Source: Gammaproteobacteria bacterium (lineage in GTDB: Bacteria; Pseudomonadota; Gammaproteobacteria; Steroidobacterales; Steroidobacteraceae). Taken from it: 64,000 bases of DNA. The translations under genes were made by a program, and so were the position numbers. Below the pieces are notes generated by a model. That model was not told the origin of the DNA. It made no database searches and saw only the letters and a list, made by a program, of their open reading frames with translations. This document shows positions 32,724 to 33,008 of this stretch, piece after piece. The stretch covers positions 37,788 to 101,787 of the forward strand of contig JAABQQ010000111.1 of the NCBI GenBank assembly GCA_011391405.1. Reading direction: 5' to 3'. Each line of letters begins with the position of its first letter. The stretch's first letter is position 1.

Positions 32724-32795
32724 CGGTCGATCCGGGGTTGGTGCCGGATCGCGGAAAGGCAGACACGCGACCCGGCACCAACCCCGGACCGACCG
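32724..32795. repeat. Hairpin element A (28/30 bp stem, 12-nt loop GAAAGGCAGACA)
   Basis: CGGTCGATCCGGGGTTGGTGCCGGATCGCG / CGCGACCCGGCACCAACCCCGGACCGACCG. Confidence 0.9.
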
Positions 32796-32926
32796 CTCCA
32801 ACAGCGCAGACACACGCACCACCATAACCCTGGAATCGACCGCCGCTATACGCCCCGCCACGCCCTTGCGCCGGCTGCTGCGGCAGGGCAGCGACATGGG
32901 ACCCGCCGTAGGTACTGACCACGGCG

Positions 32927-33008
32927 GCAGCCGGTCGATCCGACCTCTTGGCCGGATCGCGTGTCTGCCTTTCCGCGATCCGGCCAAGAGGTCGGATCGA
33001 CCGGCTGC
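32927..33008. repeat. Hairpin element B (perfect 35-bp stem, 12-nt loop TGTCTGCCTTTC)
   Basis: GCAGCCGGTCGATCCGACCTCTTGGCCGGATCGCG and its exact reverse complement at 32974-33008. Confidence 0.93.

Follow-up and report, generated by a model that had tools for sequence, protein, structure and literature searches.

A dispersed, outward-facing hairpin element with a conserved loop and covarying stems in one gammaproteobacterial genus

The two long hairpins that lie between glgB and a glycogen phosphorylase gene in the window, by which we mean the whole 64,000-nucleotide stretch of contig JAABQQ010000111.1 analyzed here, are an old copy of a dispersed repeat family. Its members share a nearly invariant loop carried on long stems that differ from copy to copy and yet remain paired. 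We hold with moderate confidence that the family, which belongs to one gammaproteobacterial genus, is a REPIN-like mobile hairpin element that is non-autonomous and is recognized through the loop of a folded single strand.

The glg hairpin pair and the unit it belongs to

A preliminary description of this DNA had reported an inverted pair of hairpins, A and B, with reverse-complementary loops and about 130 nucleotides between them, flanked by glgB and the phosphorylase gene. Our analysis bore out this layout, whose parts are as follows.

30388-32607, - strand: glgB
32723-32796, - strand: outer hairpin A, with 31-nt arms and the 12-nt loop GAAAGGCAGACA; loop motif GTGTCTGCCTTTC at 32754-32766 on the - strand
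32797-32926, no strand: center between A and B, 130 nt, with the inner hairpins decayed or lost
32927-33008, + strand: outer hairpin B, with 35-nt arms and the 12-nt loop TGTCTGCCTTTC; loop motif at 32961-32973
33039-35507, - strand: glycogen phosphorylase gene

The loop of B is the exact reverse complement of that of A, and its arms are 100% complementary, giving the perfect 35-bp stem with a 12-nt loop that had been described. The arms of A are 94% complementary when read on the + strand, but both imperfections are G-T wobbles on the loop-motif strand, so that all 31 positions pair there. The two stems have a common outer part (CGGTCGATCCG) and a common inner part (GCCGGATCGCG) around an 8-nt middle that differs, again as first reported. 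Both fold far better than shuffled sequence (z = -11.5 for A and -14.9 for B, with 0 of 200 shuffles as good). The copy at the same place in a close relative (G004) retains a remnant, GGCGCCCTGAGCG...GTAACGTGCGG, that is missing from the center here.

The glg gap also contains other repeats. G-rich GGGGTTA-type repeats lie beside GTCGGAA at 32640-32675 of the window and at locus L174, with a counterpart, TTCCGACTAACCCCTAACCCC, in the empty glg gap of a second close relative (G005); these are a second inverted repeat family, unrelated to the hairpin element. In two congeners (G001 and G003; loci L177 and L178), the gap carries other long palindromes, beginning GGGGACATTCTCCTTTTCG and GGTGCCAGGCACCGAATTTC.

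Further self-complementary copies, the test that the preliminary description had named beforehand, were plentiful. With up to one mismatch allowed, the loop 13-mer is present at 93 places in the draft genome from which the window comes (G000), against 0 for the reversed control, and the window itself holds a second complete element at about 40119-40576, downstream of lon. When the loci with the loop motif were read, they proved to be many long hairpins, a few chance one-mismatch matches, and outward-facing half-units of 57 bp in which the upstream sequence does not pair (spacing on the same strand is exactly 57 in 13 of 19 cases). Full hairpins number 70 in this genome, a high copy number, and stand mainly between genes. 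The lon copy displays the complete anatomy.

40119-40200, - strand: outward tandem half-units of 57 bp, with loops at 40120-40132 and 40177-40189 and without left arms of their own
40199-40338, - strand: left half-element (G000:C111:77986-78125), with an outer hairpin whose loop is at 40234-40246 and the inner hairpin GGCACCTGAGCA..TGCACGGTGTACG
40339-40437, no strand: center of the lon copy, non-conserved
40438-40576, + strand: right half-element (G000:C111:78225-78363), with the inner hairpin GCGCCGTGCGG..CCGCTCATGGCGC and an outer hairpin whose loop is at 40529-40541

The dispersed unit is a half-element of about 140 nt made of two adjacent hairpins, an inner one with the fixed internal loop GTG/CTCA and an outer one. 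In the lineage of the window, its order is TGCATGCGCC, GTG, a variable inner stem, CTCA and GGCGC, then a spacer of about 14 nt, a variable outer stem of 28 to 35 bp, and the fixed loop GTGTCTGCCTTTCC. Read toward the outer end, the half-element runs TGC(A/T)TGCGCC-GTG-C, the variable inner stem, CTCA-GGCGC, the spacer, one variable outer arm, the fixed loop, and the arm that matches it; conservation ends inward at about GACGCTGCATGCGCC, and the center between the halves is not conserved. The inner hairpin also covaries, and the GCGCC/GGCGC helix at its base is kept apart from occasional substitutions that still pair or wobble. Orientation is strict: the 49 clusters of full hairpins in this genome comprise 22 inverted pairs and 27 with a single full hairpin, all 22 pairs face outward, and no ++, -- or +- arrangement occurs among full hairpins. 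Of 129 hairpins, 59 have a recognizable inner motif next to them: 53 solely where it is expected, 3 solely on the wrong side, and 3 on both sides; the other 70 had it on neither side.

Individual copies depart from this plan. At L246 (G001:C160), a long palindrome, GGGGTCATTCC..GGAATGACCCC, forms the inner hairpin stem, which looks like the insertion of another palindrome into the inner loop. Two loci of another congener (L234 and L235 of G007) are tandem or nested arrays of half-elements in the order - - + + + with a period of about 250 bp, which suggests that older copies were inserted into or duplicated.

Covariation, arm matching, and strand bias

We examined about 130 loop-motif hairpins from three genomes (the window's own, G004, and G005); those of G004 and G005 came mainly from loci found via one common stem type and so are not a complete or even sample. 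Of 125 distinct outer hairpins, 111 have the same loop, and left-arm identity averages 49%. Watson-Crick pairs nevertheless form at 26.4 of 28 positions within a hairpin, compared with 13.8 of 28 when arms are cross-paired between hairpins. Across 50 diverse copies, each of the 30 stem columns includes cases in which both partners have changed and still pair. There, 93.5% of cells are paired, a figure partly true by construction because the copies were chosen as hairpins, although the margin in covariation remains very large: the score is 0.82, versus 0.20 when shuffled and at most 0.18 with slid partners, and 452 cells are double-changed, versus 115 in shuffles. The original claim of a conserved loop on covarying stems is upheld by these figures.

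The same matching is seen at single sites. In 12 comparisons of orthologous hairpins covering 324 pairs, with the outermost three and innermost two positions excluded and sites picked for arms still recognizably alike, 13 pairs showed a double change and 19 a single one, whereas independent arms would give 1.6 double changes. This supports the palindrome-maintaining process that had been proposed. Divergence in these hairpins is 6.9% in the arms and 1.8% in the loops. At glg, an identical TTGG to TCTG change distinguishes the window from the G004 copy across all four arms of A and B (32723-33008 versus L175), a pattern that hints at transfer between the two hairpins. Copies seem to overwrite one another too, to judge from the lon locus: in the window's copy, a stretch of 161 nt lying between the outer hairpins is 94% identical, inverted, to a copy on contig C66 of the same genome, and the element is present at lon in all three genomes but with different stems and centers. 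The G004 copy (L165) lacks its outer arm, so that the coding end of lon passes straight into the loop of the element, with an AAGGC match at the junction.

A comparison that was not planned beforehand bears on the nature of the folded molecule. On the loop-motif strand, stem mismatches are G-T in 99 cases and A-C in 24 (P = 5e-12); counted by distinct context, the ratio is 90:24, and it is 61:21 under stricter de-duplication. The two kinds should be equally frequent if double-stranded DNA were all that counted, so the fold appears to involve one particular single strand, that of the loop motif. A strand-specific mutation bias may also lie behind the excess. The bias reaches significance only in the outer hairpins of the group of three species formed by the window's genome, G004, and G005; in congeners, the ratio is 24:14 (P = 0.14), and for inner hairpins under a crude fold it is 54:40 (P = 0.18).

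Distribution, mobility, and genomic context

Of the nine genomes of the genus, three contain the exact loop GTGTCTGCCTTTCC (G000, G004, and G005). A covariance model of the half-element matches eight of the nine, G003 being the one without a match. The same model matched nothing in 24 other genera sampled within the family, nor in a sample of 195 other genomes from the order, where stricter filters were used and weak matches may be lost. By these matches, the element is confined to one genus among the genomes sampled. The remaining congeners have far fewer copies, in which the inner motif is unchanged and the loop differs by lineage: GCATGTCTTCYTCGC in G006, G007, and G008, near variants of it in G001, and ACATGTCGGCTTTCGG in G002. 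One contig binned as Burkholderiaceae (JAOUJD010000280.1; L088) carries the element as well; its sample name falls in the JAOUGW series, and the contig is probably mis-binned.

Occupancy varies between close relatives. The glg site is filled in the window's genome and in G004 and empty in G005, L053 is empty in G005, and L073 is empty in both G004 and G005, while most other comparable sites are occupied in the relatives also. Because it is absent at these three sites in close relatives, the element is probably mobile. None of the three empty sites could be aligned at the base level, and a possible GCGTGA repeat was seen at L073 only. At L061 (contig C234 of the window's genome), the left and right flanks map to separate places in G004 and G005, which reflects either a rearrangement or a mis-assembly at the element.

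Genes around the elements were called with a simple codon-usage method. The flanking genes are convergent at 40 of 68 sites and divergent at 3, and the outer side of the element faces the 3' end of a gene in 100 of 125 cases, mostly less than 60 bp away. Either a function or merely the purging of harmful insertions may account for this placement.

Searches for an autonomous partner or an enzyme gene linked to the element found none in these genomes, all of which are drafts (that of the window is 78% complete), so that an absent gene may be unsequenced and negative gene searches are weak evidence. A retroelement was considered and set aside: RVT_1 was found only in G000 and G004, with none in the drafts of G005 or other carriers. 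The 1.2 to 3 kb between distant half-elements hold genes resembling ordinary host genes rather than cargo, and recurrent open reading frames near elements looked like element sequence read as ORFs or like conserved host genes. Phage and plasmid collections held no similar DNA, and 40 matches to 16-mers in IMG/VR were judged to be chance, with only 8 to 12 of 28 stem positions pairing. In the papers searched, the motif appears in no relevant context; the string occurs in two unrelated ones.

Mechanism, alternatives, and relation to known elements

In the reading we favor, the half-element would be read as a folded single strand, namely, the loop-motif strand. We infer that this strand would be DNA rather than RNA and that a trans-acting enzyme, most likely a single-strand DNA nuclease or transposase, would recognize the hairpin via its loop and inner internal loop; by its putative insertion chemistry, the enzyme would copy the unit or the inverted pair into tolerated sites. 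The arms would stay matched as template switching during replication copied one arm onto the other, a process documented to create and repair perfect stems (PMC8794818, PMC7202029), and copies that lost the fold or the loop would stop spreading. Several observations weigh against this reading. Neither the enzyme nor an autonomous partner was found in the drafts, the empty sites yield no readable target-site duplication, and the G-T bias is weaker in congeners and inner hairpins. Some of the spread could also be gene conversion among existing copies, as at the lon locus and in the arrays of 57-bp half-units.

An element acting as RNA, with outward transcripts forming both hairpins, the loop binding a protein or small RNA, and copies kept for a regulatory or mRNA 3'-end role, strikes us as rather unlikely. 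The placement at gene 3' ends and between convergent genes would suit it, and strand-specific, wobble-tolerant covariation around conserved unpaired nucleotides is typical of RNA. Yet the wobble bias lies on the strand antisense to the gene whose 3' end is nearest, so that the adjacent mRNA is not the selected molecule. Moreover, no Rfam family matches the window at the gathering cut-off, sub-threshold matches at element loci are mostly generic miRNA-type hairpins, and mobile repeats typically show arrays and variation in presence or absence. The 3'-end location also invites the idea of bidirectional terminators or mRNA 3'-end stabilizers domesticated at gene ends, to which we give next to no credence. 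Its stop-codon-proximal position between convergent genes and the simple inverted repeat CTCCCGCCTGCGGGAG that takes the place of the element at L053 in the relative lacking it are in keeping with such a role. Against it, no T-run (U-tract) follows A or B on either strand as read from the sequence, purging of insertions elsewhere would leave a like placement, and the fixed loop goes unexplained.

That the palindromes are neutral, spread by recombination or gene conversion and matched by template switching alone with no hairpin-recognizing enzyme, we regard as unlikely. The many double relative to single changes in orthologues, the precedent for template switching in perfect stems, and the shared lon center, which suggests conversion between copies, all speak for it; the near-invariance of the loop compared with the arms, the fixed orientation, the G-T asymmetry, and the new insertions are left unexplained. 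Membership in a true REPIN family moved by a RAYT (TnpA_REP, a Y1 transposase) appears very improbable, even though inverted extragenic hairpin doublets in high copy are its hallmark and a Y1_Tnp gene is present in G005 and five congeners. The preliminary description had noted a resemblance in layout to REPINs and had suggested a search for RAYT genes. We found no such gene in the drafts of the window's genome or G004, both rich in copies, no element near any of the six gene loci inspected (that of G005 included), and a Y1_Tnp gene in G003, which lacks element matches; other congeners with few copies have such genes too. REP sequences carry a conserved GTAG/CGTC foot tag on stems of 5 to 13 bp with family-specific sequence (PMC3733652), whereas the stems here span 28 to 35 bp, no foot tag is common to the copies (among 126 hairpin 5' feet, GTAG is near 6 and CGTC near 17), and the loop is conserved rather than the foot or stem. 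The REPIN likeness stands by analogy only, in the inverted doublet, the extragenic and multicopy occurrence, and the presence/absence variation.

Compared with known systems, the element resembles REPs and REPINs with their RAYTs (PMC3116915, PMC3733652, PMC8266576) in being palindromic, extragenic, and multicopy, in forming inverted doublets, and in its predicted single-strand fold, and compensatory changes have been reported for the REPIN hairpin as well (PMC3116915). It differs in its conserved apical and inner internal loops, its long and freely covarying stem, and the lack of a linked RAYT. MITEs are likewise non-autonomous, 100 to 500 bp long, intergenic, and bounded by inverted ends. 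In contrast to them, the copies here share no terminal inverted-repeat sequence; each end is a palindrome with a copy-specific stem, only the loop and inner motif are common, and no parent transposon was found. Double-hairpin elements were reportedly described from mitochondria by Paquin et al. in 2000. These and the repetitive hairpin elements of sponges (PMC10085805, PMC2800124) are small, dispersed, mostly intergenic, built of one or two hairpins, and thought to be mobile, but they are organellar, whereas the present element lies on bacterial genome contigs. The sponge elements show the reverse of the present pattern, with conserved stems and variable loops (PMC2800124).

It is possible, if doubtful, that the family represents a new class of mobile hairpin element, in which a genus-specific enzyme would read the apical loop together with the GTG/CTCA internal loop, coevolution of loop and reader would yield the lineage-specific loops, and arm-to-arm copying at each round would rewrite the stem completely without the fold ever being lost. 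Rolling-circle plasmids and geminiviruses have hairpin replication origins with a conserved nick site in the loop. These too pair a conserved loop with a variable stem and are recognized in single-stranded form; the elements here differ in being dispersed chromosomal repeats.

Arguments for compensatory change in long stems usually draw on ribosomal or regulatory RNAs. The family offers natural replicates, about 130 of them in dispersed positions, and some of these occupy orthologous sites of species that differ by roughly 10 to 15%; with matched double changes far above the independent expectation, selection for folding and template-switch repair could be distinguished with data. A loop that is fixed, in place of the stem or foot, and that differs by lineage would imply a strand-specific hairpin reader that has gone unrecognized, for which these genomes form a defined set to search.
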